A model generated the notes under the pieces. That model worked only from the letters and a program-made list of their open reading frames with translations. It searched no databases and was not told the origin of the DNA. Of a stretch of DNA of 54,620 bases, positions 2,353-18,890 are shown in pieces. Each line of letters begins with the position of its first letter. Positions within the stretch are counted from its first letter, which is position 1. The translations under genes and the position numbers were made by a program. This DNA comes from Actinomycetota bacterium (lineage in GTDB: Bacteria > Actinomycetota > JAICYB01): positions 1-54,620 of the forward strand of contig DATLNZ010000159.1 in the NCBI GenBank assembly GCA_035536535.1, written 5' to 3'.

Positions 2353-3144
2353 ATGCCGCTGCTGTCGGTCCGCGGCCTGCACGCGGGCTACGGCTCAACT
2401 CTGGTGCTGCACGGCGTGACACTGGAGATCGAAGCGGGAGAGATCGCAGCGGTGCTGGGCCCCAATGGCGCGGGCAAGACCACGACGCTGAGGGCGCTGT
2501 CGGGCCTGATCAAGCCGGCTCGCGGCTCCGTCACGTTCGAAGGCCAGGAGCTGCGCGGGCGGACCGCGGAGCAGATCGTGGCGAAGGGCATCGCCCACGT
2601 CCCCGAGAACCGCGGAGTGTTCCCGGCGCTCACAGTCGAGGAGAACCTGCGGCTGGGCGGCTACCTGGTCCAGCGGCGGCCCGCGGAGTACAGCGCCAAC
2701 CTCGAGCGCGTCCATGAGTTCTTCCCGGTGCTCGCCGAGCGCCGGACGCAGCTGTCGGGGACCCTGTCCGGCGGCGAGCAGCAGATGCTGGCGATCGGAC
2801 GGGGCCTCATGAGTTCCCCGAAGGTCCTGCTCGTGGACGAGGCGTCGCTCGGCCTTGCCCCGATAGTCGTCAAGCGCCTGTTCTCGATCATCCAGCAGAT
2901 AAACGCGTCGGGCACGACCGTGCTGATGGTCGAGCAGAACGCAGCGTTCACCCTGGCCATCGCCCATCGCGCCTTTTTGATGCAGAAGGGGCAGATCGTG
3001 TTCGCCGGGTCCGGCAGTGAGCTGCGTGGCGAGGGGATCGTCCGGGCTTACCTGGGCGAAGGGTCCATCGGTGCCCCCCCGGCCGCTCCTAAGGCCCCTA
3101 AGGCCCCTAAGGCCCCGCCGGCCGGGAGGACGCGCAAGCGCTGA
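2353..3144 (+). CDS. livF: Branched-chain-type ABC importer ATPase, LivF family (orphan)
   Basis: A 263-residue nucleotide-binding subunit with Walker A GPNGAGKTT (36-44), signature LSGGE (138-142), Walker B VLLVDEA (158-164) and the VEQN switch segment typical of LivF rather than LivG. It would energise a Liv-type importer together with LivH, LivM and LivG. It is not adjacent to permease genes on its own strand. Because the second importer (13886-18314) lacks a LivF, this protein may supply it (inference). The C-terminal tail of about 25 residues is low-complexity, with an AAGGCCCCT unit repeated three times encoding KAP triplets, and is not part of the usual domain. Confidence 0.9.
   Translation: MPLLSVRGLHAGYGSTLVLHGVTLEIEAGEIAAVLGPNGAGKTTTLRALSGLIKPARGSVTFEGQELRGRTAEQIVAKGIAHVPENRGVFPALTVEENLRLGGYLVQRRPAEYSANLERVHEFFPVLAERRTQLSGTLSGGEQQMLAIGRGLMSSPKVLLVDEASLGLAPIVVKRLFSIIQQINASGTTVLMVEQNAAFTLAIAHRAFLMQKGQIVFAGSGSELRGEGIVRAYLGEGSIGAPPAAPKAPKAPKAPPAGRTRKR
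3094..3120 (+). repeat. Tandem 9-base repeat in the livF 3' end
   Basis: Three near-perfect copies of AAGGCCCCT encode a Lys-Ala-Pro repeat in the C-terminal tail of the orphan LivF. It is a coding microsatellite and a possible length polymorphism; no separate function is visible. End coordinates are approximate. Confidence 0.7.
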
Positions 3145-3156
3145 CGGCCGGCTGCG

Positions 3157-3837
3157 CTACTTGCGGGCCTGCTCCCGCTGGGTGTCCCACTGCCACCGCA
3201 GAGACACCTTGCGGCCGTCCGAGGCCGTGAGCTCCCGGCAGTGCAGCAGCCCGGACGACCCCTTTCTCGACGTCTCCAGGGTGCAGGGCCGCGACAGGGC
3301 GTCGAACCGCAGGTACGGGATGGGGGACGCGGACGATCCGACCACCTCCACAAAGGCGTCCGATCCCAACGGGCTCTGGACCGTCCCCCCTTCCCCCGGC
3401 ACCGAGATCCCGCGGTCGGTGAGCGTGTACTTTCCGTCGCCTCTGTAGCTCCCGGGCGCGAGGTTGAAAGCCACCCGGAACCGGGTCCCGTCTTCGAGTT
3501 TGAGGTGCTCGATCATGGCGACCGACAAAAAGGTCGCCACCTCGGGCAGTCGCCCGCCGAAGAAGGTCTCCTGCCGGGTGACCACCAGGGCGTCACGCAC
3601 GTGCGCGTCGAAGTCCCCCTCCACGTCGATGCGCACCGGACCGCATTCATTACGGCTGTCCCTGCCCGGGACGGCCGAAGGTGAACCACCGGAAGGAAGG
3701 GCGGTGGACGCCAGCCGCAGGCGGCGCAGCTTTTCCTGACACTCCCGGGACAGGCCCTTGGCCTCGGGGCTCGCGTCCCCGCAGGCTCCGCACGCCAGAA
3801 CCGCCACCAGCACGACCGCGGCCCGGCGGATCAACAT
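3157..3837 (-). CDS. Probable lipoprotein of unknown function
   Basis: A 226-residue protein whose N-terminus MLIRRAAVVLVAVLAC looks like a lipoprotein signal with C16 as the lipidated residue. The mature part has no motif I recognise; it contains mixed beta-type sequence and C-terminal cysteines (SRPCTLE, LLHCREL) that could pair. The ATG at 3837 is supported by GAAGGA four bases upstream, and it overlaps the 3' end of the preceding lipoprotein gene by seven bases. As the last gene of the first importer operon it may be a cell-surface partner of that system (inference). Confidence 0.72.
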   Translation of the reverse strand: MLIRRAAVVLVAVLACGACGDASPEAKGLSRECQEKLRRLRLASTALPSGGSPSAVPGRDSRNECGPVRIDVEGDFDAHVRDALVVTRQETFFGGRLPEVATFLSVAMIEHLKLEDGTRFRVAFNLAPGSYRGDGKYTLTDRGISVPGEGGTVQSPLGSDAFVEVVGSSASPIPYLRFDALSRPCTLETSRKGSSGLLHCRELTASDGRKVSLRWQWDTQREQARK

Positions 3838-4394
3838 GCGTCCTTCACGAAGAACCGTGCCTCCCCTGCCGCCTGCCCGACCTTGGACCTGCCCGCCGCC
3901 ACCCTGACAAACCCGGAACCGAAAGGCGCGTCGGGACGGATCACCCAGCTCCACTCGTAGCGCCCGCTGGCGTCGGAGTACCCGGGGGCCGAGGGGAAGT
4001 CCGGACGGTAGTCGGGGTCCGAGTACTGCGTAGCCACGCCTATCACCACGTTTGGCCGCGTCTGGACCACCGCCTTCATGGCCGCCCCGCGCCGGCCGCA
4101 GTCTGGGACAACCTTCACCTCCAGCGGCATCGTGTTGTTGGGATAGGTGATCGGCCTGTACCCGTCGGGGGCCGCCGTGGGCTCGGGAGTGCTCGCGCCG
4201 CCCGCGTCCGCCGGCGCAGATGAAGGACTCGCGGCAGCCGCGCTTCCGGAAGGGCCGGCTGGGGCCGAGGACGAACCCGGGGCCGCGACGGCGTCCCTGA
4301 GCCCGCTGCCGGTGACCCTGCCCGGCCTCGGCGCGTCCTGGCTAGAGCATCCGGTCAGGGCCAGCGCCACGAGCAGGGGGCCGAGGCGGGTCAT
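3831..4394 (-). CDS. Lipoprotein with Ser/Ala/Pro-rich stalk and beta-rich C-terminal domain
   Basis: A 187-residue protein with a textbook lipobox, LTGC, at residues 13-16. A Ser/Ala/Pro/Gly-rich stalk (about 30-75) is followed by a domain of about 110 residues with two cysteines (VVPDCG and the final C) that could be disulphide-linked; its beta-strand pattern suggests an Ig-like fold, though I cannot name a family. The ATG overlaps the stop of the upstream livF by four bases (ATGA), placing it firmly in the importer operon. A surface-exposed accessory or ligand-presenting protein is possible. Confidence 0.75.
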   Translation of the reverse strand: MTRLGPLLVALALTGCSSQDAPRPGRVTGSGLRDAVAAPGSSSAPAGPSGSAAAASPSSAPADAGGASTPEPTAAPDGYRPITYPNNTMPLEVKVVPDCGRRGAAMKAVVQTRPNVVIGVATQYSDPDYRPDFPSAPGYSDASGRYEWSWVIRPDAPFGSGFVRVAAGRSKVGQAAGEARFFVKDAC

Positions 4395-5152
4395 CGCCGG
4401 CCCCCTCCCGCCGCACCGGTGGCGCCGGGGGCCTCGGCCGCCTCGCCCAGATAGGCCGCGATCACGTCCGGGTCGTCGAGCAGGTCGCGCGACCTTCCCT
4501 CCAGCGCCACTTCTCCCCGCGCGAGGACGTATGCGCGGTCGCTGTTCTCCAATGCCATGTGGACGAACTGCTCCACGATCAAAAGCGCCGTCCCCTCCTG
4601 GTTGACCTGGCGGAGGATCTGAAACAGCTGCTGGACGATCAACGGCGCCAGTCCCAGCGACAGCTCGTCCACCACAAGCAGCCTCGGGGTGCACATCAGC
4701 GCCCGCGCGACTCCGAGCATCTGCTGCTCGCCACCCGACATCGTGCCGGCAGGCTGCTCCCGCCTCTCGAGCAGCTTCGGGAAGAAGTGAAACGCGCGGT
4801 CCAGACCCTGCTTGTAACCGGCGCGATCCTTTCGCTTGGTCCAGTAACCGAAACGCAGGTTCTCCTCGACCGTGAGCGACGGGAACAGGTCCCGGCCCTC
4901 CGGCAGGTGCGCGAGGCCGCGTCCGATCACCTCGTAGGCCGGCAGTCCGGCAATCGGTTCTCCGGCGAAGGTGATGGACCCGGACGAGGGCGCGAGCAGC
5001 CCGGAGATCGTCCGCAGGGTCGTGGTCTTCCCGGCCCCGTTCGACCCGAGAATCGACACGATCTCGCCTTCCGCAACGTCCAGCGAAACTCCCCGCAGCG
5101 CCTGGACTGCCCCGTACCGCACGTCGATGTCGCGCACCTCGAGCAGGCTCAC
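4391..5152 (-). CDS. livF: Branched-chain-type ABC importer ATPase, LivF family
   Basis: A 253-residue LivF-type ATPase with Walker A GSNGAGKTT (36-44), signature MSGGE (138-142), Walker B LLVVDEL (158-164) and the VEQF switch segment. It provides one nucleotide-binding site of the heterodimeric motor; the other is the LivG domain of the fusion encoded just upstream. The GTG start at 5152 overlaps the fusion gene's stop as GTGA, so the two are translationally coupled, which fits a 1:1 complex. The C-terminal tail is Ala/Gly-rich. Confidence 0.92.
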   Translation of the reverse strand: MSLLEVRDIDVRYGAVQALRGVSLDVAEGEIVSILGSNGAGKTTTLRTISGLLAPSSGSITFAGEPIAGLPAYEVIGRGLAHLPEGRDLFPSLTVEENLRFGYWTKRKDRAGYKQGLDRAFHFFPKLLERREQPAGTMSGGEQQMLGVARALMCTPRLLVVDELSLGLAPLIVQQLFQILRQVNQEGTALLIVEQFVHMALENSDRAYVLARGEVALEGRSRDLLDDPDVIAAYLGEAAEAPGATGAAGGGRR

Positions 5153-8037
5153 CGCGCCACCGCCATCTCCTCGACGGGGCGTCCCAGGTAGGCCGCGATC
5201 ACCTGAGGATCGCGCTTCACAGACTCCGGGGGGCCCTGCGCGATGAGCGACCCGCGGTCGAGCACGTACATGTAGTCGCTCACGGATGTGACCATCTTCA
5301 CGTCGTGCTCGATCAGCAGCAGCGTCATCGCCTCCTCGTCGCGCAGGCGGCGAAGCACCTCCGTCAGCTCCTCCGTTTCCGTGCCGTCGAGGCCCGAAGC
5401 GGGCTCGTCGAGCATGATGAACCGGAAACCCGTCACCAGAGCCCGGGCGACCTCCACCATCCGCAGCACGCCGAAGGGCAGATCGGCTACCCGGCGCTGG
5501 GCGACGTCGGCCAGCTCCAGCCGCTCCACCACCTCGGCCACCCTTCGCCTAGCCTGCCGCTCGGTCTGGATCGACCTCGGGGTTACGACCAGATGCGACA
5601 AAAAGCCCGTGGAGTTGTGCAGGTGGGTCGCGACGAGCAGGTTGTCGAACACCGACAGTTGCGGAAATAGCTGGATCGCCTGAAACGTCCTGGCGACGCC
5701 CATGGCCGCGCGCTCGTGCACCGGCATCTCGCCGACGTCGGTCCCGTGCAGGGTGATGTGCCCGGACGAAGGCGTGACGAGTCCGGCGACCGAGTTGAAC
5801 GTGACGGACTTGCCGGCGCCGTTGGGACCGATCAGTCCGACGATCTCGCCCTCGCGGACCTCCAGCGTCACTCCTTGAACCGCGGTCAGGCCGCCGAAAC
5901 GGACGGTTAGGTCGTCGGCCTTCAGAACGACCGTAGTCTGACGCCGGCCGTCCGGTGAAGCGCTGGGGACAAGAACCGGACCGGGTTCCGATGAAATCGC
6001 ATCGTCCTGTAGTTGTCCGGCCTCCGAAGCGGGCTGCATCCCCCAGGACAGCAGCCGGGCACGGCCGCGGTAGCGTACCCGCCCGGCGAGCCACGACAGG
6101 TCCTCGATCATCTGGTCGGTCAGGGCGTCCGCCCGGCGAAGGGCGCTCATCAGCGCCTGCCGCCCCGCGATCAGGCCTACGATCCTGTGTCCCGCGGCGG
6201 CCAGGCCGCCGCGGTACGCCAGCAGGACGATGGCCAGCAGCGCGGTGGCCGTGACCTCCAGAAAGCCGCTCAGGGCCTGAACCTCGTAGAAGACGTAGTT
6301 GAGGGAGGCGAACACCAGCCCCGACGCCATCCCCCCGGCGAGACTGGAGACGCCGCCCACGACCGCGATCGACAGGAGCAGCAGCGAGATGTTGATCTCG
6401 AACTGCAACGGCGAGATCGCGCGGGCCTCCATCATGAGCAGGTTGCCCGCGACGGCGGCCAGGGCCCCGGACAGGCTGAACGCCAGCAGCTTGTAGCGGA
6501 CGACGTTGATGCCCAGCGACGCGGCGGCCATCTCCGAGCCCTGGACCGCGAAGAACGCGCGGCCGGTCTTGGAGTCGCGCAGGTTGGCCATCGTATAGAG
6601 CAGCGCGAAGGCGACCGCCCAGGCGATGAAGTAGAAGACCGTCCGGCTGGAGAAGTCGAAGTAGGGGAAAGTGCCGGCGCGTCCGATAGGGGCCACCGTG
6701 ATCGAGCTGTGCCTCGTGAACCAGGTCTGGCGGAACAAAAACTCGCTGGCCGTCCAGGTGAAGATGAGAGTGGCGACGGCGAGGTACAGGCCGCGCACCC
6801 GGACCGCGACCGCTCCCAGAGCCACGGCGACGAGCGCGCCGGCCCCCGCGGCGAGCGGGAGGTTGAGCGGGAAGGGGATGCCGAGGCCTTGCGCGAACCA
6901 GCCGGTGGTGTAGGCGCCCACGCCGAGGAATGCCGCATGGGCCAGCGAGATTTGCCCAACCCACCCCGTCAGCATGACGAGTGAGACCGCAACGATCGTG
7001 TAGATGGCCCCCTGGTTGGCCGAACCCAGCAGCGCGTAGTTCAACTTAAAGGGAAGCAGGCAGAACAACAGGACCCCGGCCGCCATAGCTAGACGACGGC
7101 CCGGCAGATCGCGGGCCCTCGGACCATCGCCGGACTTCGCCCTGCCGATCGCACCACCGCGTACGTCTGCACCCGCGACGATGCGGCGCCCACGAAAGGC
7201 CATGGCCGCTATCGCGATGACCGCGAGCAGCAGCTGCGGAGCTCCCTGCATCTGTCCCAGGGAGCCGAGGACGGGAACGAGTCCCAGCGTCACGCCCACC
7301 ACCACGGCCCCCAGGACGGCCCCCGGCAGGCTCGCCATCCCGGCGATGAGCGCGGCCACGAATCCGAACAGGGCCTGGAAGGAAAGGACGTACGGGTGCA
7401 GGTTCGTCGTGTTCGACGCGAGCAGGATCCCCGACAGCCCGGCGAGGCTGCCTCCGATGACCCAGGCGAGGGCGGTGATGCGGTCGGGGTTGACCCCCAT
7501 CAACGCAGCGGCACGCCTGTTCTCGGCCGAACCGCGCATGATCAGTCCGAGGTCGGTCCGCGTGAACAGGACGAACAACGCCGCGGTCACGGCCAGCATC
7601 ACGAAAAAGAGTCCGAACTCCCCGTAGTTGATGGACGACTGGCTGACCTTGACGAAGCCCGCGGGGAAGATCCTCACCGAGGGCAGTCCGGTGGTCCCCC
7701 ACACCTTGGCGGCGATGGCTACGAGGATCCCGAGTGCGGCCACGGTCCCGACGGTCTGGGACGTCGTCGACTCCGACCTCAGGCGCCGGATGAAGACCCT
7801 CTCCACCCCGTACCCGAGCAGTCCGCCGGCCGCCACCCCGAGCACGAATGCGATGGCCGCCGGGACGCGCAGCTTCGCGTTGAGCGTGTAGACCACGTAG
7901 GCCGGGATCATGACCATCGCGCCGTGCGCGAGGTTCAGGACCTGGGACGCCCGGTAGATCATCACGATCCCCACGGCCAGGATCGCGTAGGCCCCGATGT
8001 TCCCCAGGGACAGCAGGACCGCCACGAGGATCTTCAT
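5149..8037 (-). CDS. Fused LivH-LivM-LivG branched-chain-type ABC importer subunit
   Basis: A 962-residue polypeptide that joins three normally separate subunits. LivH-type permease occupies roughly 1-290, LivM-type permease roughly 315-640 (WVGQISLAHAAFLG near 366), and a LivG-type ATPase 715-962 with Walker A GPNGAGKS near 732, Walker B MLDEPASG near 876 and switch IEHD. The signature reads LPFGVLRMVE (near 854), which departs from LSGGQ. The ATG at 8037 starts one base after the TGA of the substrate-binding protein gene. With the following livF it would form a complete inner-membrane importer from only two chains. Substrate cannot be read; this superfamily also carries amides, urea and aromatic acids. 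Confidence 0.9.
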   Translation of the reverse strand: MKILVAVLLSLGNIGAYAILAVGIVMIYRASQVLNLAHGAMVMIPAYVVYTLNAKLRVPAAIAFVLGVAAGGLLGYGVERVFIRRLRSESTTSQTVGTVAALGILVAIAAKVWGTTGLPSVRIFPAGFVKVSQSSINYGEFGLFFVMLAVTAALFVLFTRTDLGLIMRGSAENRRAAALMGVNPDRITALAWVIGGSLAGLSGILLASNTTNLHPYVLSFQALFGFVAALIAGMASLPGAVLGAVVVGVTLGLVPVLGSLGQMQGAPQLLLAVIAIAAMAFRGRRIVAGADVRGGAIGRAKSGDGPRARDLPGRRLAMAAGVLLFCLLPFKLNYALLGSANQGAIYTIVAVSLVMLTGWVGQISLAHAAFLGVGAYTTGWFAQGLGIPFPLNLPLAAGAGALVAVALGAVAVRVRGLYLAVATLIFTWTASEFLFRQTWFTRHSSITVAPIGRAGTFPYFDFSSRTVFYFIAWAVAFALLYTMANLRDSKTGRAFFAVQGSEMAAASLGINVVRYKLLAFSLSGALAAVAGNLLMMEARAISPLQFEINISLLLLSIAVVGGVSSLAGGMASGLVFASLNYVFYEVQALSGFLEVTATALLAIVLLAYRGGLAAAGHRIVGLIAGRQALMSALRRADALTDQMIEDLSWLAGRVRYRGRARLLSWGMQPASEAGQLQDDAISSEPGPVLVPSASPDGRRQTTVVLKADDLTVRFGGLTAVQGVTLEVREGEIVGLIGPNGAGKSVTFNSVAGLVTPSSGHITLHGTDVGEMPVHERAAMGVARTFQAIQLFPQLSVFDNLLVATHLHNSTGFLSHLVVTPRSIQTERQARRRVAEVVERLELADVAQRRVADLPFGVLRMVEVARALVTGFRFIMLDEPASGLDGTETEELTEVLRRLRDEEAMTLLLIEHDVKMVTSVSDYMYVLDRGSLIAQGPPESVKRDPQVIAAYLGRPVEEMAVAR

Positions 8038-8038
8038 G

Positions 8039-9514
8039 TCACTCCAGGGCCGGGTCCGCCAGAAAACCGGATCCCGGGCCGAATCCCGCGAACGACCCCT
8101 GCGCCACCACGATCGAAAAGGCCTGGGCACGGATGTTGGCATGGTGCTTGCCGGGTTTCCAGGACAGGGGAGCCGAGACCCCGGCCGGATGCTCCATCGA
8201 ATCGAGCACCTGTTTGAGCCGCGCCCTCGTCAGCTGCGGCCCGACCTTCCTAAGTGCCTCCACGAACACGTTCATGCCCAGGTACGCACCCTCCAGGAAC
8301 TGGTTGGTGGTGTCCACGGTGGGCGACACGCTCTTTACGTCGTTGACGTAGGCGGCCACGGCGGGATCCGACGCCAGCGTTCCGACCGGCGGGTTGTAGC
8401 CCGTCCACACGAGCATCCCGCTGCACGGCTTTCCGCAGTTGGACGCGAACCGCTCGTTGAAAAGAGTCTGCGACCCGGACGTGATCATGGTCCCGAACTG
8501 AGGACGTCCGGCGATCCAGGTCTCGGCCGTCGACGGCTCCAGCAGCAGCGCGACCATGTCGCACTGGCCGTTGCACGCGGTATTGAACGACTGGATGTCT
8601 GAGCTGTAGGAGGCCTGTCCGGGAAGGATGCCGGTGTACGCCTTCAGCTGGGCCCCCGGCTTGGACTCCACGTACTGCTTAAACGCCTCGGCCCCCTCCC
8701 GGCCGAACCGGTAGAACTTGTCGTAGACGATCCCGAAGCTGCGGGCACCCTTGTCGTAGGCGTGACGCGCCATGACCCGCATCGTCGAGATCGTCGCCGT
8801 CGCCACGGGCCACACGTACGGGTCGCGGTACTGCTGAATGAGCATCCCGTCGGACCCGACCACCGGAATGCCCGCCTTGGAGATGTCGCCGGACTCGATG
8901 GCGGCCGTCAGTCCCTCCGAAGACGGCGTGACCGGCAGGGCGAACACGCCCTCGTTGATGAAGTTGCGGATGAACGTCAAGCCGCGGTCGGCCTGCCAGC
9001 CGTCGTCCACCAGCTTGATGTCCAGCAGCCGCCCGCAGATTCCGCCTGACGAGTTCACCTTCCGGACGACGGCCTGGATCCCGACCGGAGACTGCCCAAG
9101 GAACGATGCCCCGATCCCGGACTGGACCACGGTCGCCGCGAGCTTGATCTTGTCGGCGGTGACGCCGGTGTCGGTGGCGCCGCCGTTCTTGCCGCGCGAG
9201 CACTCCAGTCCCTTCGGCTGCGCAAGCGCGCCACCCGGGCCCGCCGCAGCTCCGGCCGTGCTGCCTCCGGCCGCTGCCGGGTCCCCGATGGCCCCACCTG
9301 CGTCGGCGGCCTCGGCTGCGGCCCCCTCACCGTCGACCGCGGCGGACTCCGCTCCTCCACCGGCGACCGCCGACTTTTGCGGAGCCGCACGGTCCTGAAC
9401 CACCACGTAACCGAGCAGTCCTGCCATGGCGAGGTAGAGAAGCGGACGGTTCCGCCCGGCGAACAGCGACCCCGCCAGCAATCCGATTCCTATTCCGATG
9501 AGCAGAAGGGTCAT
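8039..9514 (-). CDS. Membrane-anchored substrate-binding protein of a Liv-type importer
   Basis: A 491-residue periplasmic-binding-protein type 1 (LivK-like) receptor. Instead of a lipoprotein signal it has two hydrophobic helices (about 1-20 and 24-40) joined by a short basic turn, then an Ala/Gly-rich stalk (about 45-100), then the two-lobed binding domain from about 103. Cysteine pairs, for example in SNCGKPCSG, probably form disulphides. It captures substrate outside the membrane and delivers it to the permease encoded one base downstream. The double-helix anchor is unusual for the family, where lipidation or free diffusion is the rule. Confidence 0.88.
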   Translation of the reverse strand: MTLLLIGIGIGLLAGSLFAGRNRPLLYLAMAGLLGYVVVQDRAAPQKSAVAGGGAESAAVDGEGAAAEAADAGGAIGDPAAAGGSTAGAAAGPGGALAQPKGLECSRGKNGGATDTGVTADKIKLAATVVQSGIGASFLGQSPVGIQAVVRKVNSSGGICGRLLDIKLVDDGWQADRGLTFIRNFINEGVFALPVTPSSEGLTAAIESGDISKAGIPVVGSDGMLIQQYRDPYVWPVATATISTMRVMARHAYDKGARSFGIVYDKFYRFGREGAEAFKQYVESKPGAQLKAYTGILPGQASYSSDIQSFNTACNGQCDMVALLLEPSTAETWIAGRPQFGTMITSGSQTLFNERFASNCGKPCSGMLVWTGYNPPVGTLASDPAVAAYVNDVKSVSPTVDTTNQFLEGAYLGMNVFVEALRKVGPQLTRARLKQVLDSMEHPAGVSAPLSWKPGKHHANIRAQAFSIVVAQGSFAGFGPGSGFLADPALE

Positions 9515-9548: not shown

Positions 9549-12389
9549 TCAGCTGATCGTGACTCGGATGGCGCGCCGGCGCATGGCCAGGTAGACGGGC
9601 GCGCCGAGGACCATCCAAATCATCGTCGCCAGCAGGCCCTCACGGGGTCGCCGGAGCAAAAACGACAGCCCGTAGGCGAAGCGCTTGACCGTCCTCGCGA
9701 TCGCGTTTCCCACGGCTCCGGCCACCACCGGAGGAGCGGCGACGCCGCCGATCTCCGGAAGCGGGCCGTAGGCGATCTCGGACAGGACCTCCGTGAGGGG
9801 CACGTCGGGCAGGGTGTCTCCCGCGGCGAGATCCACGTCGCCGAGGCCCTCCAGGCCCAGCGCGTTGAGCAGGTAGATGCCGTAGGTCGCGGAGGCGTCG
9901 ACGCCGGCGATCTGGTAGATCTGGCGGCCGCGGCCGAGGGTGGGGTCGTCGTTGAAGACCGACATCTCGATCGCGGGAACCTGCGTGGACGCGTCGTTGT
10001 TGATCGCGCGAGCGGAGACCTCCTGCCCGCGGTCCTTCTGGATGGAGGCCAGGTAGCCGCCGGGAGTCCCGCGGCTCAGGCCGGGGTCCGGCTCCGGGAA
10101 GACGACGCGTGCCCGGCCGCTGAGGGCGCGGTTCAACTGCGTCTCGATGGGCGACTTGCCCAGCGCGGACTCGATCTGAGGGGACACGTTGCTCTCGGGC
10201 AGGACGCATCCCTGGACATCGACCTTCTGGCTCGGGATGCTCACCCCGCACAGGATTCGGCTGAACTTCGTGCCTGCCGTTCCGGGCTGTCCGCCGGCGA
10301 ACGACTCAGCCACGGTGCCGGCGGCTTCGATGCGGAAGACGCCCGGCACCTCGACCCCCCTGGCCCACGACTCGCTGTGGACGACCAGTCCCCGGTCCGT
10401 GGTCTTCATGAGGCTCACCTGCGACGACGTGTCCACCACCTTCAGGGGGCCGAAGTTGACGCCGCCGGCGTTCGGGGGGCTGAGCGTCAGGTTCTGGCTG
10501 CGGGCGCTGGCGAGCACCTTCGGCTGCGCGTCGGACTGCGCGCAGTTGACCTCCGCGGTGTAGCCCGGGAGGTTCGTGGTGCCGGCGTTGCCCGTGCCGT
10601 CGTTCGAGCACTCCGCGGCCTTTGTAGGCCAGGTCGTGCCGAGTGCCTCGTCGGCGTCGTTGTTGCCGTCGCGGTCCGCGTCGAGGTCGGGCCGTGGCCA
10701 GAAGGACTGAAAAGGGTCGGCGCCGAGCGGCTGCGGGCGCGCCCAGCACCGGGAGACGACCTCCGCCGCGTCGGTCTTCGTACCTGGATCGGCCTCCAGA
10801 GGGATCGCGGCCGCCCCGGCGAGGTTGTTGGACAGCGCCGCCTGCCTGACGAAGCCGAAGACGATCTCGCGGTCGGCCCGTCCGCACGGGGAGCCGGCCG
10901 AGGCTATGCCGCTGCGTCCGGGCCTGATCGACCCGACGCTCGGCCCCCCGGGAGGAAGGCCCTCGACACCGCCGACGAACAGCGCGCGCAAGCCGTAGCC
11001 GTGGGCGGTGCCGGTGAAGTTGGAAGCGGTCGTGGCCGGGTTCTCCGGCTCGTCGGTGGTGAACCGGTCCTGGTCCTCCAGAGGGGGGTCGGTGGACACC
11101 TCGACGGAGTCCTCGTACACGGTGAAGAAGGCGTCGGTGCCGCGCCGGACGAACACCCTGGTAGCCAGATCCTCTCCGGAGTCGGCCTGGATCCGCATCA
11201 CGCCGTTACCCGCCTGGTCTTCGAACGCCAGAGCTTGGGGGACGGGCGACCGGCGAGCATCGGCGATGAGCAGCCCTCCGGCATTGCGCTGCCTGCCCTT
11301 CTGAGTGGATGGGGCCAGCGTGTACAGCCTGCCGGTGAACGGGTCCACTCCGGACGACGCGGGCACGGGCTCCAGCGTCATCCCGATCACCCCGACGTAG
11401 GCCGAGCTGTCGCCGTCGAACACCCACCAGGACTCGCCCTCCTCGTTCATGACACGCATGAGCATGCGGTCGGACTCGGGGTCCGACAGGACGTCGGCGA
11501 CTCCAAGCGGCCCGGGGAACACCTCCTCGACGACCGGACGTCCACTCGCGTCGGTCAGCAGCCGGACCACCTGCCCGGTCCCACCGGCCCCCTGGCAGGC
11601 GAGGTAGACCGACGACCCGTGCCGGCTCTGGAACAGGCTCAGCTGGTACCGCGATTGCGGATGTATCGGGAGCTTGAAGTTCCCGCAGGCGGCGACCCTG
11701 TAGATCCAGTCCTGCTTGCCGGTCTGGGTGTCCCACTGGGAGGCCCAGACGATGTTGAAGTTGTTCTCCGTCCCGGGCGCCCTCTGCTCCTGCATCAACA
11801 GCAGGATCTTCGGAGAGCCTCCGGACAGCGCGGAAGGCGTTATGTCGATGCCCCGCAATCCGGCCGCCACCCCCGCGGGCAGCGGCACGCAGGAGCTCGT
11901 GGAGGTGCACAGGCCGTTGGAGGCGGGCGTGGGAGGCGCGTCCTCGCGCCGGAACGTCTTGATCTGGGTGAGCGTCGGACCGTCCAACACCACGAATCCC
12001 CCGAACAAACTCAGGCTGTCGAGGAAGGCGAAGTACAGGCGCCCGCTGTTTTCGTCGACGGCCTGGATGAACTCCCCGGACGTGATCCCCACCGGAGTGC
12101 TGGCCGTGAACGCAAAGGACTTGTAGGCCAAAGGCTCCAGGGTGTCCAGGTTGAACGACTGGACGCCCGTCCCACGGGTCAGGGCGAAGACCTGGTACCC
12201 GATGCGCCGCTTGCGGTCCAGCAGCAGCGATCCGTTGGACGAGAAATCGGCCGCATCGTGCGGCCTGAAGATCGGAAGCTTGCCGCGGGGAACCAGCTTC
12301 GGGTCCGCGGCCCCCACGCCCACGGGCAGCAAGGCCAGCAGGAGCACGGCCGTCACCGGCCAGACCCACAGTCCCCGCGTCCGCTTCAC
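9549..12389 (-). CDS. Large exported, C-terminally membrane-anchored protein of unknown function
   Basis: A protein of about 946 residues that I cannot place in a family. A clear signal peptide (MKRTRG, hydrophobic core, cleavage near GVGA) opens it. The GTG at 12389 is preferred because AAAGGG lies six bases upstream; a GTG at 12407 is the alternative. The first 450 residues have recurring strand-turn sequence suggestive of a beta-propeller (inference). Near 570 is a DxDxDG calcium-loop motif, DLDADRDGNNDADE. Near the C-terminus is a hydrophobic helix flanked by basic residues (RRPREG...MRRRAIR), a stop-transfer anchor. It lies 34 bases upstream of the first substrate-binding protein gene, so it may belong to that operon. 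Confidence 0.75.
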   Translation of the reverse strand: MKRTRGLWVWPVTAVLLLALLPVGVGAADPKLVPRGKLPIFRPHDAADFSSNGSLLLDRKRRIGYQVFALTRGTGVQSFNLDTLEPLAYKSFAFTASTPVGITSGEFIQAVDENSGRLYFAFLDSLSLFGGFVVLDGPTLTQIKTFRREDAPPTPASNGLCTSTSSCVPLPAGVAAGLRGIDITPSALSGGSPKILLLMQEQRAPGTENNFNIVWASQWDTQTGKQDWIYRVAACGNFKLPIHPQSRYQLSLFQSRHGSSVYLACQGAGGTGQVVRLLTDASGRPVVEEVFPGPLGVADVLSDPESDRMLMRVMNEEGESWWVFDGDSSAYVGVIGMTLEPVPASSGVDPFTGRLYTLAPSTQKGRQRNAGGLLIADARRSPVPQALAFEDQAGNGVMRIQADSGEDLATRVFVRRGTDAFFTVYEDSVEVSTDPPLEDQDRFTTDEPENPATTASNFTGTAHGYGLRALFVGGVEGLPPGGPSVGSIRPGRSGIASAGSPCGRADREIVFGFVRQAALSNNLAGAAAIPLEADPGTKTDAAEVVSRCWARPQPLGADPFQSFWPRPDLDADRDGNNDADEALGTTWPTKAAECSNDGTGNAGTTNLPGYTAEVNCAQSDAQPKVLASARSQNLTLSPPNAGGVNFGPLKVVDTSSQVSLMKTTDRGLVVHSESWARGVEVPGVFRIEAAGTVAESFAGGQPGTAGTKFSRILCGVSIPSQKVDVQGCVLPESNVSPQIESALGKSPIETQLNRALSGRARVVFPEPDPGLSRGTPGGYLASIQKDRGQEVSARAINNDASTQVPAIEMSVFNDDPTLGRGRQIYQIAGVDASATYGIYLLNALGLEGLGDVDLAAGDTLPDVPLTEVLSEIAYGPLPEIGGVAAPPVVAGAVGNAIARTVKRFAYGLSFLLRRPREGLLATMIWMVLGAPVYLAMRRRAIRVTIS

Positions 12390-12429
12390 ATCGTCCCTTT
12401 CGCCCACATTGTCACCCGAGACAGTCGCA

Positions 12430-12461
12430 CGGGAGCGCCGATGTCTCCATCGGCGCTCCCG
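12430..12461 (-). terminator. Strong hairpin after the small secreted-protein gene
   Basis: A perfect 14-base-pair stem (CGGGAGCGCCGATG pairing with its complement) closed by a TCTC loop, located between the stop of the 12490-13170 gene and the start of the large exported protein. There is no U-run on either strand, so it is either a GC-rich terminator of the kind seen in actinobacteria or an mRNA-stabilising/processing hairpin. Confidence 0.65.
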
Positions 12462-12489
12462 GTGAAACCGTCCTTCTTGCGTGCGGCTG

Positions 12490-13170
12490 CTAGAACGAAA
12501 CCGTCATCCCCTCCACCTGGAACTGAGTGGTGGCCTGCGAGATGCCGCAGTCGCCGGCGCCGCTGAGGCCACGCGAGCTCGTGAACCCGACCAGCGTCGA
12601 GCGCTTGCCCGTGTCGAGATCGATCCCGGACCCAACGATCGGAAGGACCGTGGCTCCCGACTGCTCCCACGTGTACTCGTAGGAAACCCTCACGACCCGG
12701 CCGCTGACGGAGCTTTGAGCCGACCTGGTGTCACTGCGCAGCCGTCCCCGGGACGACCCGCAGTAGGCGCCGAGTCCCACTGCGCTGGGAAACACCCCGT
12801 AGTTGCCGTCCGGCGAGTAGGAGTGGATCGAGCATCCGGGCCCTCCCAGCGTGCTCACGCAGAAGCTGTCCGGAGCCTTCAGGTCCGGACCTGCCGCGAA
12901 CTCCACCGGCGAGCGCAGGATGCGGGGGCCGAGCCCGGGCCAGAAGAAGCCCTGGCACCCGGAAAAGCAGTGGGCGTTGGTGACCTTGTTCCAAAGCGGG
13001 TCCTCGAGGTCGTAGGTGCAGTTGGCGCCGGCGGCGTTGCAGACGAAGCCGACTCCCTCCAGAACGCTGACCGCGACGACCTCGTCGGGGTTCTGTGCCG
13101 ATGCGGGCGAGGCGGTGACCGCTGCGAGCGCCGCTACGGCGGCCGCCGCGACGAGCTTTCTGAATCTCAT
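12490..13170 (-). CDS. Secreted cysteine-rich protein of unknown function
   Basis: A 226-residue exported protein with a Sec signal peptide, MRFRKL plus an Ala-rich core, predicted to be cleaved after ASA (residue 25). The mature chain has eight cysteines, enough for four disulphides, arranged as C..C, HCFSGC, FC, GC, YC and DC. No catalytic motif was recognised. The ATG at 13170 has GGAGG seven bases upstream; an ATG 18 bases further 5' lacks such a site. It follows the 13198-13767 gene by 27 bases and probably shares its transcript. Confidence 0.75.
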   Translation of the reverse strand: MRFRKLVAAAAVAALAAVTASPASAQNPDEVVAVSVLEGVGFVCNAAGANCTYDLEDPLWNKVTNAHCFSGCQGFFWPGLGPRILRSPVEFAAGPDLKAPDSFCVSTLGGPGCSIHSYSPDGNYGVFPSAVGLGAYCGSSRGRLRSDTRSAQSSVSGRVVRVSYEYTWEQSGATVLPIVGSGIDLDTGKRSTLVGFTSSRGLSGAGDCGISQATTQFQVEGMTVSF

Positions 13171-13197
13171 GTGAGGTCCTCCAGTCATGTCAGTTGT

Positions 13198-13767
13198 CTA
13201 TCGAACCGCGGTGCACACGTCGTAGCGGCGCAGCTGCGCGAACATCGGCTCGTCGGCCGTGAAGGCGTGGGGTCCGACATCACCTACAGCGTCGGAGGAC
13301 CTCGCACGCCCGTTGCCGGCGCTGGCGCGGTCCGACACGCTGCAGCCTGCTCCCCTGTAGGCGGCGTCGCCGGGAATGCCCTGGATGGCGAGGTCGATCG
13401 CAACGTCGCCCAGGGCCCAGGTCCCCGAGGTGGGGATCGTCCCGCGCACTGTGGCCGTGCTCGTCTGGGGGGTCGAGCCCCAGTCGACGCTCACCTGCAG
13501 CGTCCCGCGGGGCACGATGCCTGCGGCCGTTCCGTACGCCTGGGATGTGGCGGTAAGGACCGCTGCCCCCGTTTCGTCGGCGACGAGGCGCCAAAGGCCC
13601 GGGTCGGCCCCGGGAGTGAACTGCAGGTACACCTGACGGTGGTCCTGCGCAACGCAAACGTCCGGCGTGATGCCCGCGCAGTCCTCGGCGCGGGCGCCGG
13701 CTGCCGCGGGAGTCATCGCGATCACGGCCAGTGCCGCCACAGCGGTGACCAATCGTCCTGCTCTCAT
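13198..13767 (-). CDS. Secreted protein of unknown function
   Basis: A 189-residue exported protein. The signal peptide (MRAGRL, hydrophobic core, cleavage near GARA) is followed by a mature region with four cysteines (EDC, DVC, GAGC, YDVC) and alternating Val/Thr-rich strands, suggesting a beta-sandwich. AAGGGGGA three bases before the ATG at 13767 supports this start. It is the first of three exported-protein genes lying between the two importers; no homologue comes to mind. Confidence 0.72.
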   Translation of the reverse strand: MRAGRLVTAVAALAVIAMTPAAAGARAEDCAGITPDVCVAQDHRQVYLQFTPGADPGLWRLVADETGAAVLTATSQAYGTAAGIVPRGTLQVSVDWGSTPQTSTATVRGTIPTSGTWALGDVAIDLAIQGIPGDAAYRGAGCSVSDRASAGNGRARSSDAVGDVGPHAFTADEPMFAQLRRYDVCTAVR

Positions 13768-13885: not shown

Positions 13886-15958
13886 TCAGACCGACGGCTG
13901 GGCCGCCGCGGAGACCAGCGCCTCTTCGCCCCCCAGGTCGCCCTCGTCGGATCCCAGGTAGGCGGCGATCACCTCCGGGTGCCGCGCGATGGCCGAGGGC
14001 TCCCCCTCGGCCAGGAGCTCTCCGAAATTCAGGACGTAGACGTAGTCGGCCACGGACAGCACCAGGGGGACATGGTGCTCGATCATCAGCACCGTCACGT
14101 CGAACGCCGCCTGGATCTCCTTGAGCGTCCGCCCCAGCTGCTCGGCCTCCGGGGGGGCCATTCCGGACGAAGGCTCATCCAGCAGAAGGATCCGGGGGCC
14201 CGTCACGAGAGCCGCACCAAGCTCGACGACCTTGAGCAGGCCGTGCGGCAGGTCGTGGACCACTCTTCCGGCGAGCTCGAGCAGCCCCAGCCGGGTCAGG
14301 GCCTCCTCGGCCCGCTCACGCAGCTCGTCCTCGGACCGCCGGACGGCCTGAGTGCGCAGGATTCCCTCCAGCGGCCCATACCCTGCCACCGAGTGCTGGG
14401 CGATCATCAGGTTCGCCAGCACCGTCTCGGACTTCACCAGCCCGATGTTCTGGAAAGTCCTGCCGAACCCCATGCAGGCCCTGCGGTAGGCAGGGGTCGA
14501 GGTGACGTCGCGGCCGCCGAACCACACCTGTCCGGAATTGGGCTTGGCGAATCCGGAGACGCAATTGAAAAGAGTCGTCTTGCCGGCGCCGTTGGGCCCC
14601 ATCAGGCCTACGATCTCCCCCTCACGGACCTCCAGCGTCACCCCGTCCAGCGCCTGGACCCCGCCGAACCGGATCGACACCTCCCGCACCTCCAGCAGCG
14701 GACCGCGGGCGGACCGGCCGAGCGCGTTGCGCCGCAGTACCGACCCCGACACGGCCGCCTGGCCCACGGAGGTCGTCGCCAGCACCTGCGCCGCCTCCGG
14801 GTCGTGCTCTTCGGCGGCCTGCGCCTGGTGTTCCGCCCTTGCATGACGCCGCTCGCGCAGAGCGCGCGGAAGCCGGGCCCAGCCCCCCGCCGCGGCCGCC
14901 GCGGACGGCAGGGAGCTCACGGCCCGAGCCACCGATGCGGGAAGGCGCAGCAGGCCAAGGGCGACGTGGCGCCGGTGCTTCCAGAGGTGAGTCGCCAGGT
15001 GAGCCAGCTCCCTGCCCTGCTCCGCGAGGCCGCCTCTGTAGCGGGTCAGCGTCAGGATGAGCAGGAACCCCCCGAGCACGATCGACCACGTCTGCAGGTT
15101 GGTGAAGATCTGCGTGAAGAAGATCGGGAACATCGTCGAGATGAAGACGCCGGCCCGGGAGCCGAGCCCGCCGATGACGCCGTAGACGAGCAGCTCCAGG
15201 GACCGGTCGTAGTCGAACAGCTCCGCCCCCGCCGAGCGCAGCAGGGTCGAGAAAAGCGCCCCGGCCAGACCCGCGTAGAAGCCGGCGATGGCGAAGGCGA
15301 GCAGCTTGTAGCGCTGCACGGAGATGCCGAACGACGCCGCGACCTGTTCGTCCTCGCGGATCGCGTAGAAGGCCCGGCCCCCGCGCGTGGAGGCGAGGTT
15401 GCGGTCGGCCATCCAGATGACGAGCAGCGTCACCGCGATCACGTACATGAACGTCTGCTCCGTCAGGCGGCGGCCCCCGATCCACATCGGCATCTCGATG
15501 TCGATGCCCGCGGCCCCGGACGTGATCACGTCCTGCCGGAACACGACGCGCGCCATCACGAACTGGAAGCCCAGCGTGACGATCGCGAGGTGAAGGCCCC
15601 GGATGCGAAGGGCGGGGATGCCGATGAGCACAGTGACCGCCGACGTCACCAGCCCGGCGATGGGGTAGGCGACCCAGAACGGGACGCCGTGCAGCGAGTA
15701 GAGGATGCCGAGCGTGAAAGCGCCGGACCCCATCAGCGCCGCCTGGGCAAGGGACATCTGGCCGGCATACCCGGTGAGCACGTTGATCGACAGTCCCACC
15801 AGCCCCCAGATCAGAGCCCGGGAGAAAAGGAACGTGTTGTCCTTGACGATGCCGATCTCGGGCAGGCAGAGAAGGAGCCCGGCAGCGGCGGCTCCGGCGA
15901 TAAACCGGCGGCGCCTGCGGGCCATCTGCTGCGGGTCTGCCACCGCCGGCGAAGTCAA
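13886..15958 (-). CDS. Fused LivM-LivG branched-chain-type ABC importer subunit
   Basis: A 690-residue fusion of a LivM-type permease (about 1-330; GYAGQMSLAQAAL near 63) and a LivG-type ATPase (about 430-690; Walker A GPNGAGKTT near 453, Walker B LLLDEPSSG near 593). The linker of about 95 residues is Ala- and Arg-rich and probably cytosolic. The signature reads LPHGLLKVVE, again unlike LSGGQ. The start is taken as the TTG at 15958, whose TTGA overlap with the LivH stop fits the coupling seen throughout the region. No LivF follows; the orphan LivF at 2353-3144 is a candidate partner. Confidence 0.9.
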   Translation of the reverse strand: MTSPAVADPQQMARRRRRFIAGAAAAGLLLCLPEIGIVKDNTFLFSRALIWGLVGLSINVLTGYAGQMSLAQAALMGSGAFTLGILYSLHGVPFWVAYPIAGLVTSAVTVLIGIPALRIRGLHLAIVTLGFQFVMARVVFRQDVITSGAAGIDIEMPMWIGGRRLTEQTFMYVIAVTLLVIWMADRNLASTRGGRAFYAIREDEQVAASFGISVQRYKLLAFAIAGFYAGLAGALFSTLLRSAGAELFDYDRSLELLVYGVIGGLGSRAGVFISTMFPIFFTQIFTNLQTWSIVLGGFLLILTLTRYRGGLAEQGRELAHLATHLWKHRRHVALGLLRLPASVARAVSSLPSAAAAAGGWARLPRALRERRHARAEHQAQAAEEHDPEAAQVLATTSVGQAAVSGSVLRRNALGRSARGPLLEVREVSIRFGGVQALDGVTLEVREGEIVGLMGPNGAGKTTLFNCVSGFAKPNSGQVWFGGRDVTSTPAYRRACMGFGRTFQNIGLVKSETVLANLMIAQHSVAGYGPLEGILRTQAVRRSEDELRERAEEALTRLGLLELAGRVVHDLPHGLLKVVELGAALVTGPRILLLDEPSSGMAPPEAEQLGRTLKEIQAAFDVTVLMIEHHVPLVLSVADYVYVLNFGELLAEGEPSAIARHPEVIAAYLGSDEGDLGGEEALVSAAAQPSV

Positions 15959-16878
15959 GCCTCACCCCCCAGCAGTCCTCGCGGACGGAGCGTGAGGACG
16001 CCGACGATCAGCGCGAACTGGGCCACGAACTGCAGCCCGGGGATGTCCTGCTTGAGGTACCGCGACGCGACGTACTTCGACAGGCTCGTGACCACGCCGA
16101 CGACCATGCCCCCGACAAACGCCCCCGGCAGGCTCGTGAGCCCGCCCACAAGGGCCGCGGCGAAGCTGGGGATCAGGATCAGGGTCATGAAATAGGGGTG
16201 GAAGGACCCGATGGTGGGGGCCAGGATGATCCCCGCCAGCGCAGCCAGCACCCCCGCCACTCCCCAGGTGAACATCGACACGACCGACAGCCTGATGCCC
16301 ATCAGCCGCAAGGACGTCGGGTTCTGCGACGCCGCCAGCACCCCCAGACCGAACGTCGACCTCTTAAAGAAGACGTAGAACACAACTCCCAGGACGACGG
16401 TCACCGCCAGCGCGAGAAGCCGGCCCCGGTCCACGAAGATCCCGCCGATCCCGACGGCCTGCCCCGACAGAAGAGAGGGCAGGTTCTGGGGGCGCTCGCC
16501 CCAGATGATCAACTCCAGCCCGCCCAGGACGGTGGACACCCCCAGCGTGGCCACGGTGATCGTCAGAGGGGCCGCGTCGGACATCGGCCGGACCACCAGC
16601 CGCTCCATCGCCACGCCCAGACCTGCGGCAAGCAGGACCGCCAGCGTCACAGCGAACACGAGCGGCAGGCCCAGGCCCCCGAAGCTGAACGGACCTATCT
16701 GCGCGAGCGTGGTCCCCGGCCGACTCGTGGCCATCCATGCCAGGTAGATGGCAACGGTGCCGATCTCGCCCTGCGCGAAGTTGATGACCCGGGTCGCCTT
16801 GTACACCAGGACGATGCCCAGCGCCATGAGCCCGAAGGTGGCGCCGTCCGTCACGCCGGTGATGACGGCGCTGAGCAT
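15955..16878 (-). CDS. livH: Branched-chain-type ABC importer permease, LivH family
   Basis: A 307-residue inner-membrane permease with about eight hydrophobic helices and the family segment RVINFAQGEIG near 30-42. It forms half of the translocation path with the LivM domain of the fusion downstream. The ATG at 16878 overlaps the stop of the substrate-binding protein gene by one base (TGATG), and its own stop overlaps the next start (TTGA), so receptor, LivH and LivM-LivG are translated as a coupled set. Confidence 0.92.
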   Translation of the reverse strand: MLSAVITGVTDGATFGLMALGIVLVYKATRVINFAQGEIGTVAIYLAWMATSRPGTTLAQIGPFSFGGLGLPLVFAVTLAVLLAAGLGVAMERLVVRPMSDAAPLTITVATLGVSTVLGGLELIIWGERPQNLPSLLSGQAVGIGGIFVDRGRLLALAVTVVLGVVFYVFFKRSTFGLGVLAASQNPTSLRLMGIRLSVVSMFTWGVAGVLAALAGIILAPTIGSFHPYFMTLILIPSFAAALVGGLTSLPGAFVGGMVVGVVTSLSKYVASRYLKQDIPGLQFVAQFALIVGVLTLRPRGLLGGEA

Positions 16879-18314
16879 CAGACCCTATCGATGCAGGCGG
16901 CGAGCAGCTTCCACTTGGCGCCGTCGAGCCGGTAGACGTTTACGGCGTGGGCTCCCCGGCCCTTGTCGCGGGTGAAGTCCAGCGCGCAGGCGGGTCCGAC
17001 CTGTGCTGGGTTCTCCTTGTAGGTGTCCAGAAGCGTCCACACCTTTGTCCGGGTCAGGTCGCGGCCCGCCTGGCGCAGTATCCGCTCCAGTCCCTTTGCG
17101 GCCAGATACGCGGAGTAGTCGAAGTCGTCCGGACACAACGGATCGTTGGCTTCGCACTTCTCAGGCGAGTACTTGTCGAAGATCCTGCGGAACTCGGTTA
17201 TGTCGCCCGCCCACGGAAGGTTCCGGTCGGTGTGGTCGTAGGGCGGGTTGAAGTGGTGGAAGAGGATGGCCTTGGCGTTGGAGTCGGCCAGTGCCGCGGC
17301 GATGATGTTGTAGCCCGCGGCCGGGGACACCGCCGTGAAAAGGGGCTTGTAGTTCGGGTTGTTGTTCTGCTTCAGCAGCTTTATCCAGATGTTGGGCGTC
17401 GTGAAGTTGTTGATGATGTCCACGCCCTTTTGCTCCATCTCCAGCATCACGTCGGTGAACTGGTTCTCGTCCTTCTCCACCTGCTTGTCGACGGCGAGGG
17501 AGAAGCCGCGCTTGCGCAGTTCCTCGACGAACACGTCGTGGCCGGCGGTGAAGAACGGAGAGTTGACGCGGAGCATCCCGAACACCGGCTTGGCCTTGCC
17601 CGTCAGCTGCTGCGCGTTTTTGATCAAGTAGTCGGCGAGCAGAACGTGCTGAGACTCGTAGTCGGGGCCGACCATCTTCACCTGGGGGATGTTGCCTATG
17701 TCCTTCACGGATGCCGGCCCGGCCAGGTAGGGCACCTTGTTTGCGGCCGCCCACTTTCCGACCGCGACGATCTGGTCGGTGCCGGCGGCGCCCGCGTACA
17801 GAAAGGTCCCGTTGCGCTTGCAGTCGTTGACGGCCTGCAGCGCGCCGGCGGGGTAGTACTTGTCGTCGAGGGTGACGAACTTCACGTTCCGGCCGTGGAT
17901 CCCTTTCAGCTCTTTGTTGACGTAGTCGAAGTAGAACTTCCCGAACCGGCCCGGGTGCCTGGGAATGGGTGCCGCTCCCGTCATGGGGATGTGGGAGCAG
18001 ATGGTCACCTGCGTGTCGGTCACGCCTTCGGTGTCGTTCGGGAAAAGCTTGGCCCCCGAGACACCGGCCGGGCCCTCGCCCGCTTTGCCGGCGGCGGCCT
18101 TGGCCGCGGGGCCCCCGGCTGCCGCGGCGGCGCCACCGGCCTGCGCTCCGCCGGCCTCCGCGCTGACCGAAGCCCCTTCGGCCCCCGCCTCGGCCGCCTC
18201 GACTGCCGCGCCTTCGCCGGACGAAAGACGGGAACTGGAGTCGGCCGGGACCTTCAGCCCGCAGGCCGACGAGATCACCGACGACAGTGCAAGAAGAAAG
18301 ATCGCGCGCCGCAT
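16878..18314 (-). CDS. Substrate-binding protein of the second Liv-type importer
   Basis: A 478-residue periplasmic-binding-protein type 1 receptor. The N-terminus MRRAIFLLALSSVISSAC looks like a lipoprotein signal (C18), although Ser at -3 is atypical. A stalk of about 60 residues rich in Ala, Gly and Glu precedes the binding domain from about 97. The ATG at 18314 has GGAG eight bases upstream. The sequence differs greatly from the receptor at 8039-9514 and probably binds a different ligand. It leads the operon with livH and the LivM-LivG fusion. Confidence 0.88.
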   Translation of the reverse strand: MRRAIFLLALSSVISSACGLKVPADSSSRLSSGEGAAVEAAEAGAEGASVSAEAGGAQAGGAAAAAGGPAAKAAAGKAGEGPAGVSGAKLFPNDTEGVTDTQVTICSHIPMTGAAPIPRHPGRFGKFYFDYVNKELKGIHGRNVKFVTLDDKYYPAGALQAVNDCKRNGTFLYAGAAGTDQIVAVGKWAAANKVPYLAGPASVKDIGNIPQVKMVGPDYESQHVLLADYLIKNAQQLTGKAKPVFGMLRVNSPFFTAGHDVFVEELRKRGFSLAVDKQVEKDENQFTDVMLEMEQKGVDIINNFTTPNIWIKLLKQNNNPNYKPLFTAVSPAAGYNIIAAALADSNAKAILFHHFNPPYDHTDRNLPWAGDITEFRRIFDKYSPEKCEANDPLCPDDFDYSAYLAAKGLERILRQAGRDLTRTKVWTLLDTYKENPAQVGPACALDFTRDKGRGAHAVNVYRLDGAKWKLLAACIDRV

Positions 18315-18425
18315 GTGCGGCTCCACCCCCTGATCAGCTGACTGCGGCTCGCAGGAGCCCCCGGCCACCGTAATTCGACCCGACGCCGGCGAGTTCCTGC
18401 CACGAAACTCCCAAATCGGACGGCG
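18315..18425 (-). other. Structured leader between the paralogue gene and the second importer receptor
   Basis: This 111-base gap contains a hairpin on the - strand (GGCTC CTGC GAGCC), a GCAGGA...TCCTGC pairing about 45 bases apart that could enclose it, and a CGCCGGCG palindrome. It may be a terminator, a processing site or a leader controlling the importer. It does not fit any tRNA or riboswitch consensus I know. TTACGGT could contain a -10 box. Confidence 0.3.
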
Positions 18426-18890
18426 TCACGGCTTGCAAACCCTGCAGGCCAGCAGCCCCGTGCGCTCGGCCTCCGCGCGCGGCAGGACCCGGACGCCTTC
18501 CTTGCCGGTCACGAGCCTGCACTCGGACCGGTGGAAGCTGGAGCTGCCGCGGGTCACCGACACCAGCTCCCCGCCGGAGCCACGATTGTCGGCCGGCTCG
18601 AACTCCCGGTGGGACAGGGCCTCCGTCATCTCCCGGATCGACCCGTCCAGGACCTCCAGCCCCTCCCGGATGCCCGCCTGGACGTGCACGAGCACAAAGG
18701 CCAGAACACCGGTGGCCCCGAGCACGATCAGGATCACCCCGGTGAAGCCTCCGGACACGAGGTATGGCACCTGCTGGACGACATTGGCGTGGGTCGCGGC
18801 CCCGTTGTAGCCGATGTAGAGCACGATCAGCCCGACGAGCACGAGGAGCACGCCCGCGTAGAGCGCGAGCCGGCCCGCACGCTTATCCAT
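18426..18890 (-). CDS. Two-helix membrane protein with a C-terminal Cys/His metal-site motif
   Basis: A 154-residue paralogue of the protein at 2011-2352: helices at about 8-28 and 44-68 and the shared VPYLVSGGF segment at 41-49. Unlike the paralogue it ends in a compact motif with H120, C124, C149 and C152 (SFHRSEC ... LLACRVCKP). This resembles the small zinc-binding unit found in Ada-type and other proteins (FHxxxC ... PCxxCxP). The ATG at 18890 is chosen because the open frame upstream is low-complexity and runs into the divergent gene's promoter. Function unknown; position ahead of the importer suggests a regulator or scaffold (inference). Confidence 0.72.
   Translation of the reverse strand: MDKRAGRLALYAGVLLVLVGLIVLYIGYNGAATHANVVQQVPYLVSGGFTGVILIVLGATGVLAFVLVHVQAGIREGLEVLDGSIREMTEALSHREFEPADNRGSGGELVSVTRGSSSFHRSECRLVTGKEGVRVLPRAEAERTGLLACRVCKP

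Follow-up and report, generated by a model that had tools for sequence, protein, structure and literature searches.

The analysed window, a DNA stretch of 54,620 nucleotides, is contig C159 of genome G000, which totals 2.6 Mb in 205 contigs and whose class is represented by three genomes in the sample. Other genomes, contigs and loci are given below by numbered handles (G, C and L, respectively). The minus strand carries, in order, LivK2, LivH, LivM-LivG, C, B, A, LivK_TM, LivH-LivM-LivG, LivF2 and two small lipoproteins (Table 1). The first-pass annotation had placed three exported-protein genes between two importers, and the open reading frames of A, B and C are indeed present and co-directional with both flanking LivKHMGF-type (HAAT) importers. 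Neighboring genes overlap or are separated by only about 10-120 bases, and terminator-like patterns are few, no more than expected by chance, with none between the cluster genes. It is thus plausible that the cluster from LivK2 through the lipoproteins forms one long operon. No LivF seems to adjoin the upstream (LivK2) importer, since LivF1 is encoded on the other strand at the distant end of the cluster; judged by its sequence identities, LivF1 is probably the displaced second ATPase of that importer.

Table 1 Features of the cluster, with positions in the window.
Feature	Position	Strand	Remarks
LivK2, lipobox-bearing receptor of upstream importer	16878..18326	-	Peripla_BP_6 E 1.5e-29; lipobox SSAC
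LivH permease, upstream importer	15955..16878	-	homologues, in identical order, in G001 and G011
LivM-LivG fusion, upstream importer	13886..15958	-	BPD_transp_2 and ABC_tran
C, small secreted protein	13198..13767	-	189 aa, 4 Cys; window and G001 only
B, small secreted protein	12490..13188	-	window, G001, G011
A, anchored ectoprotein	9549..12389	-	propeller (predicted), beta domain, C-terminal transmembrane anchor
LivK_TM receptor, N-terminal membrane anchor, no lipobox	8039..9514	-	Peripla_BP_6 domain from residue 122
LivH-LivM-LivG triple fusion	5149..8142	-	two BPD_transp_2 stretches and ABC_tran
LivF2, second ATPase of LivK_TM importer	4391..5152	-	83% identical to G001, 66% to G011, same position
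lipo1, small lipoprotein	3831..4397	-	relatives after LivF in G001, G011, G025 (L017)
lipo2, small lipoprotein	3157..3840	-	relatives in G001, G011
LivF1	2353..3144	+	59.6% identical to LivF after LivMG in G011, versus 48% for LivF2

The downstream importer has the components of a HAAT system: LivK_TM contains a type-I periplasmic-binding domain (Peripla_BP_6, E 4.4e-38), the BPD_transp_2 and ABC_tran domains lie in the triple fusion, and LivF2 supplies the second ATPase. The two lipoproteins reported earlier behind this importer are real, and the pair (3157-4397) also follows LivF in G001 and G011. Small proteins that share a Q[ILV]PY[IL][IV]SG motif, carry one or two hydrophobic segments and match no curated family recur beside these importers; they were found in the window at 18426-18890 (-) and 2041-2352 (+), and elsewhere at L015:7702-8205 and L054:14695-15162.

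Predicted architecture of protein A and its neighboring receptor

Protein A is 946-952 residues long and begins with a signal-like segment. At its C-terminus, a hydrophobic helix (residues 918-936) is followed by RRR, which predicts a membrane anchor from hydropathy, and both the helix and the arginines are kept in the copies of A that reach the end; the earlier description of a large, C-terminally anchored protein is thereby upheld. As that description also had it, A, B and C belong to no recognised family, with no score above the curated thresholds of Pfam or NCBIfam for any of them, and A profiles searched against PDB sequences retrieved nothing up to E 10. Comparison with G001, a genome of the same family, gave dN/dS values of 0.25/1.08 and 0.31/1.18 for A, 0.42/1.12 for B and 0.58/2.0 for C. 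With dN well below dS in all three, these are real genes that are selected as proteins.

The N-terminal domain of A (residues about 27-430) is predicted to be a beta-propeller. This part contains internal repeats, and a model of residues 27-440, of low confidence and built on a 3-sequence alignment (pLDDT 54, pTM 0.51), shows successive four-stranded antiparallel sheets. Foldseek returned 741 matches to this model at E <= 1e-3, with TM-scores below 0.5, and the named entries among the top 50 are all propellers or propeller-containing structures. The repeats, the strand pattern and the matches thus agree on a propeller, the model itself being weak. A full-length AlphaFold model from three sequences was set aside for its pLDDT of 33; its matches were also mostly propellers. 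Residues about 590-850 form a beta domain with a remote likeness to choice-of-anchor P (NF040603) in relatives, where the best match (E 1.1e-4, 22.2 bits, in G274 at L051) falls below the curated cut-off of 27 bits; A of the window has no match to this model. Nine full-length copies of A all share the two cysteine pairs 235/265 and 594/616, and the further conserved positions are scattered Gly, Asp and Arg residues. A calcium loop had been noted near residue 570, and a DxDxDG loop does lie at about residues 568-584 of 946. Only the window and G001 have a clear version of it; in G011 it is degenerate and more distant copies lack it, so the loop was rejected as a feature of the A family. The A gene of G011 (JACQXY010000033; L014:11231-14234, the same as L041:9776-12779) has a frame change near residue 290, which is either a real frameshift or an assembly error.

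The receptors encoded beside A differ from ordinary HAAT receptors in their N-terminus. A lipobox cysteine near the N-terminus is absent from all 13 A-linked receptors, versus its presence in four receptors of other importers in these genomes (LivK2 of the window, L015, L019 and L065). Most A-linked receptors have a hydrophobic segment within the called start, and the others show one when the upstream in-frame sequence is read, so that all 13 appear to be membrane-anchored. The two-helix anchor described for LivK_TM holds for the window and G001, and elsewhere a single N-terminal segment is found. The loop between the two segments is positively charged (GRNRP in the window, GRHQP in G001), which by the positive-inside rule would place the receptor domain outside the membrane. 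This domain, with four invariant cysteines, is joined to the anchor via a long Gly/Ala/Pro-rich linker. Its nearest solved structure by profile is PDB 4n03 (E 4.9e-12), which we take to be a HAAT-like receptor from Thermomonospora curvata with a bound fatty acid, and for which no A partner is known.

Linkage and co-occurrence of A with one importer branch

Gene neighborhoods were read by tblastn and codon-model gene calls across the copies of A. In all 11 copies that have a downstream neighbor on the same contig, A immediately precedes a co-directional LivK_TM gene, and the order A-LivK_TM-LivHMG-LivF continues on that strand (the window, G011, two copies in G025, two in G039 on C118 and C56, and five in G274 on C43, C15, C39, C7 and C3). 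The same order is found in G001 across two contigs: C28 carries LivK2-LivH-LivMG-C-B and the N-terminal part of A, and C196 carries the C-terminal part of A followed by LivK_TM-LivHMG-LivF-lipo1-lipo2, matching the window. The remaining copies, on G039 C166 and G274 C36, end at a contig end. The latter (L053) is the one exception in order, with a lysyl-oxidase-like gene directly upstream of the receptor operon and A placed after LivF. Fusion of A with the receptor was not seen among the copies examined. Proteins of the lysyl-oxidase family (PF01186) were noted beside four A-type loci (L048:3765-4481, L049:2496-3311, L053:926-1660 and L054:2881-4104).

Co-occurrence with the anchored receptor, the test proposed in the first-pass annotation, was then read from profile searches. 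A 17-row A profile matches 6 of the 397 genomes of the phylum, and a 13-row LivK_TM profile at E <= 1e-60 matches the same six; G002, from the family of the window, has neither. The probability of this overlap is 1.9e-13 if genomes are independent, a value that overstates the case because the six genomes fall in three families and are not independent events. Across 41 relatives, receptor matches reach E 1e-66 or better in A-bearing genomes and about 1e-11 in the rest; two intermediate receptors with 30-35% identity (G039 C166 and G025 C70) both have a lipobox. Copy numbers agree within G274, with six strong receptors and six places for A. The distances in the A and receptor trees are correlated (r = 0.84, Mantel p 5e-5, with genome relatedness not removed), and the two trees have 5 of 9 splits in common. 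A marginal A match in G377 (E 4.9e-4) disappeared with a broader profile. In a search of genome contigs, a single A protein found nothing and the A alignment found one locus, on the same contig as G011.

The conserved unit is therefore A plus the downstream LivK_TM-LivHMG-LivF importer, not the A-B-C trio. The proposed link between the exported proteins and the importers is strongly supported for A, by near-invariant gene order, perfect co-occurrence across genomes and correlated trees, and A keeps company with the LivK_TM importer only; a hand-over of substrate to the importer, and all the more to both importers, is a step beyond this link. The three-gene cassette does not stand as a unit, since B is limited to the window, G001 and G011, and C to the window and G001. 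Both proteins are small and cysteine-rich as first described: B has 232 residues from the first ATG, or 226 from the ATG at 13170, with eight cysteines (six in relatives), and C has four. As conserved subunits, B and C were rejected outside close relatives. Immediately upstream of most other copies of A stand small secreted proteins, one or more per copy and mostly unrelated; in G274 several of them form one family. The comparison of B with this G274 family is suggestive at most (hhalign E 5.5e-4, probability 30%). Three of these, with 60-78% mutual identity, lie in tandem ahead of A at one G274 locus (L049:11767-13853). Beyond G001, no relative of C was found apart from one weak match in the genome of the window itself (G000:C175:8016-8327, E 8.5e-5, 37% over 109 residues). 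The replacement of B and C, rather than their conservation, suggests that the role of the small secreted proteins changes between lineages.

Possible role of A and comparison with known systems

Since A adjoins and co-occurs with only the anchored-receptor branch of importers, it probably serves that importer as a dedicated additional component, which would meet the nutrient ahead of its uptake. We lean modestly towards A being a dedicated extracellular accessory subunit, for capture or gating, of the anchored HAAT importer clade LivK_TM-LivHMG-LivF. Capture and hand-over is the most likely mechanism, proposed by analogy with the propeller lid on the BtuG-BtuB transporter. A, by its C-terminal helix, and the receptor, by its N-terminal helix and long flexible linker, would both be tethered to the outer face of the membrane. 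The propeller of A would most likely bind the substrate, or a substrate carrier, beside the transporter and present it to the tethered receptor, which would dock on LivHM, and uptake would be driven by ATP hydrolysis at LivG/LivF. Farther from the membrane, B, C or their stand-ins may serve as soluble scavengers or adaptors. The physical contact between A and the importer, like the capture step and the roles of B and C, is something that we infer.

Linkage and co-occurrence show A as a partner and not as a ligand binder, and they would also suit a regulatory or structural partner of the importer (a sensor, a gate, or an assembly or quality-control factor) that does not touch the substrate. Response-regulator-like genes, by sequence reading, lie near two copies (L048 and L053), and the conserved positions of A, two cysteine pairs and scattered Gly, Asp and Arg, would fit a scaffold. 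However, the A paralogues within G274 are strongly diverged, roughly in step with the receptor, a pattern that suits a part carrying specificity better than a fixed scaffold. We consider this alternative unlikely, yet the most serious of those weighed. Many propellers are enzymes, and A might instead act outside the cell as an enzyme of this fold, such as a hydrolase or lactonase, freeing or altering the substrate ahead of its import, as the lactonase-like and glycosidase structures among its Foldseek matches and the lipase or lysyl-oxidase-like genes near some copies may indicate. This is distinctly improbable, as 17 A sequences gave no credible enzyme-family match in Pfam or NCBIfam and the nine full-length copies show no conserved cluster that looks catalytic. 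That A, B and C are unrelated cell-wall or S-layer-like proteins hitch-hiking beside a common importer, in a phylum whose genomes are rich in importers and secreted beta proteins, is very improbable and already contradicted by the gene order and the co-occurrence, because A occurs beside this receptor clade only, both occur in the same six genomes, and their trees are correlated.

For an accessory subunit of this kind, our favored guess from the gene neighbors is that the substrate is a hydrophobic or CoA-activated carboxylate, such as an acyl-CoA-linked lipid or acid. MaoC, SDR and SCP2 genes lie near A in the window, CoA-transferase III and MaoC genes lie directly downstream of the A-type locus in G025 (L016), AMP-ligases are near the L052 and L054 copies, and an enoyl-CoA hydratase (L054) and a GDSL lipase (L052) are also found. 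Other copies of A lie among housekeeping genes, and L049, L050 and L051 have no catabolic neighbors, so the hint is weak.

To our knowledge, the usual account of an ABC importer in single-membrane bacteria includes one lipid-anchored receptor as its sole extracellular subunit. The nearly copy-for-copy co-occurrence of A and its importer clade points to an additional layer on the outside of the membrane, for capture or gating, whose logic would resemble that of the surface lipoproteins serving TonB-dependent transporters, and gives the unnamed A family a testable role tied to one receptor clade. A broader pattern is possible and is held more tentatively: some deep lineages of the phylum may have a hitherto undescribed class of ABC importers with an obligatory, co-evolving anchored propeller co-receptor, and other HAAT importers may also have a dedicated ectoprotein. 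If this is true, the single-receptor picture of HAAT importers is incomplete. In two genomes, anchored ectoproteins of 586 and 617 residues (L019:12025-13785 and L065:14627-16480), mutually alike and without a family match, lie after LivF of lipobox-type HAAT importers and before a metallo-beta-lactamase-fold gene (the L065 gene as judged from its sequence). Placing an ectoprotein next to a HAAT importer may therefore be more widespread in these lineages. A beta domain common to A and the ectoproteins of types 2 and 3 has a consistent position and weak E values (3e-4 to 7e-3), and is not claimed here.

The importer itself is of a known kind. It resembles the HAAT systems LivKHMGF and UrtABCDE in its Peripla_BP_6 receptor, BPD_transp_2 permeases and LivG/LivF-type ATPases, and differs from them in three respects: the receptor has an uncleaved-looking N-terminal anchor in place of a lipobox, most copies join the permeases and LivG in a single polypeptide, and the locus also encodes a large ectoprotein with a predicted propeller. 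As far as searched, the combination of a dedicated, predicted propeller ectoprotein with an anchored-receptor HAAT importer is undescribed in the libraries and papers. In Pseudomonas, the PedA1/PedA2/PedB/PedC ABC transporter locus places a substrate-binding protein beside a beta-propeller protein, but PedB carries an efflux-ATPase annotation and the locus has been connected with PQQ alcohol oxidation (PMC12997753); the NCBIfam models of the PQQ-associated ABC (PedA2) are absent among the matches of A and its relatives. A parallel in logic is BtuG-BtuB of Bacteroides vitamin B12 uptake, in which a surface-anchored beta-propeller captures and hands over a small molecule (PMC10404256, PMC6143338). 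A does not belong to the BtuG family, and no sequence relation between the two was found. BtuG, a lipoprotein, forms a lid over a TonB-dependent transporter of the outer membrane, whereas A has a predicted transmembrane helix at its C-terminus, followed by RRR, carries an additional beta domain and is partnered with an ABC importer. The likeness would lie in a surface-anchored propeller, predicted in the case of A, that is encoded together with a transporter, to which the hand-over proposed for A would add a similar function.
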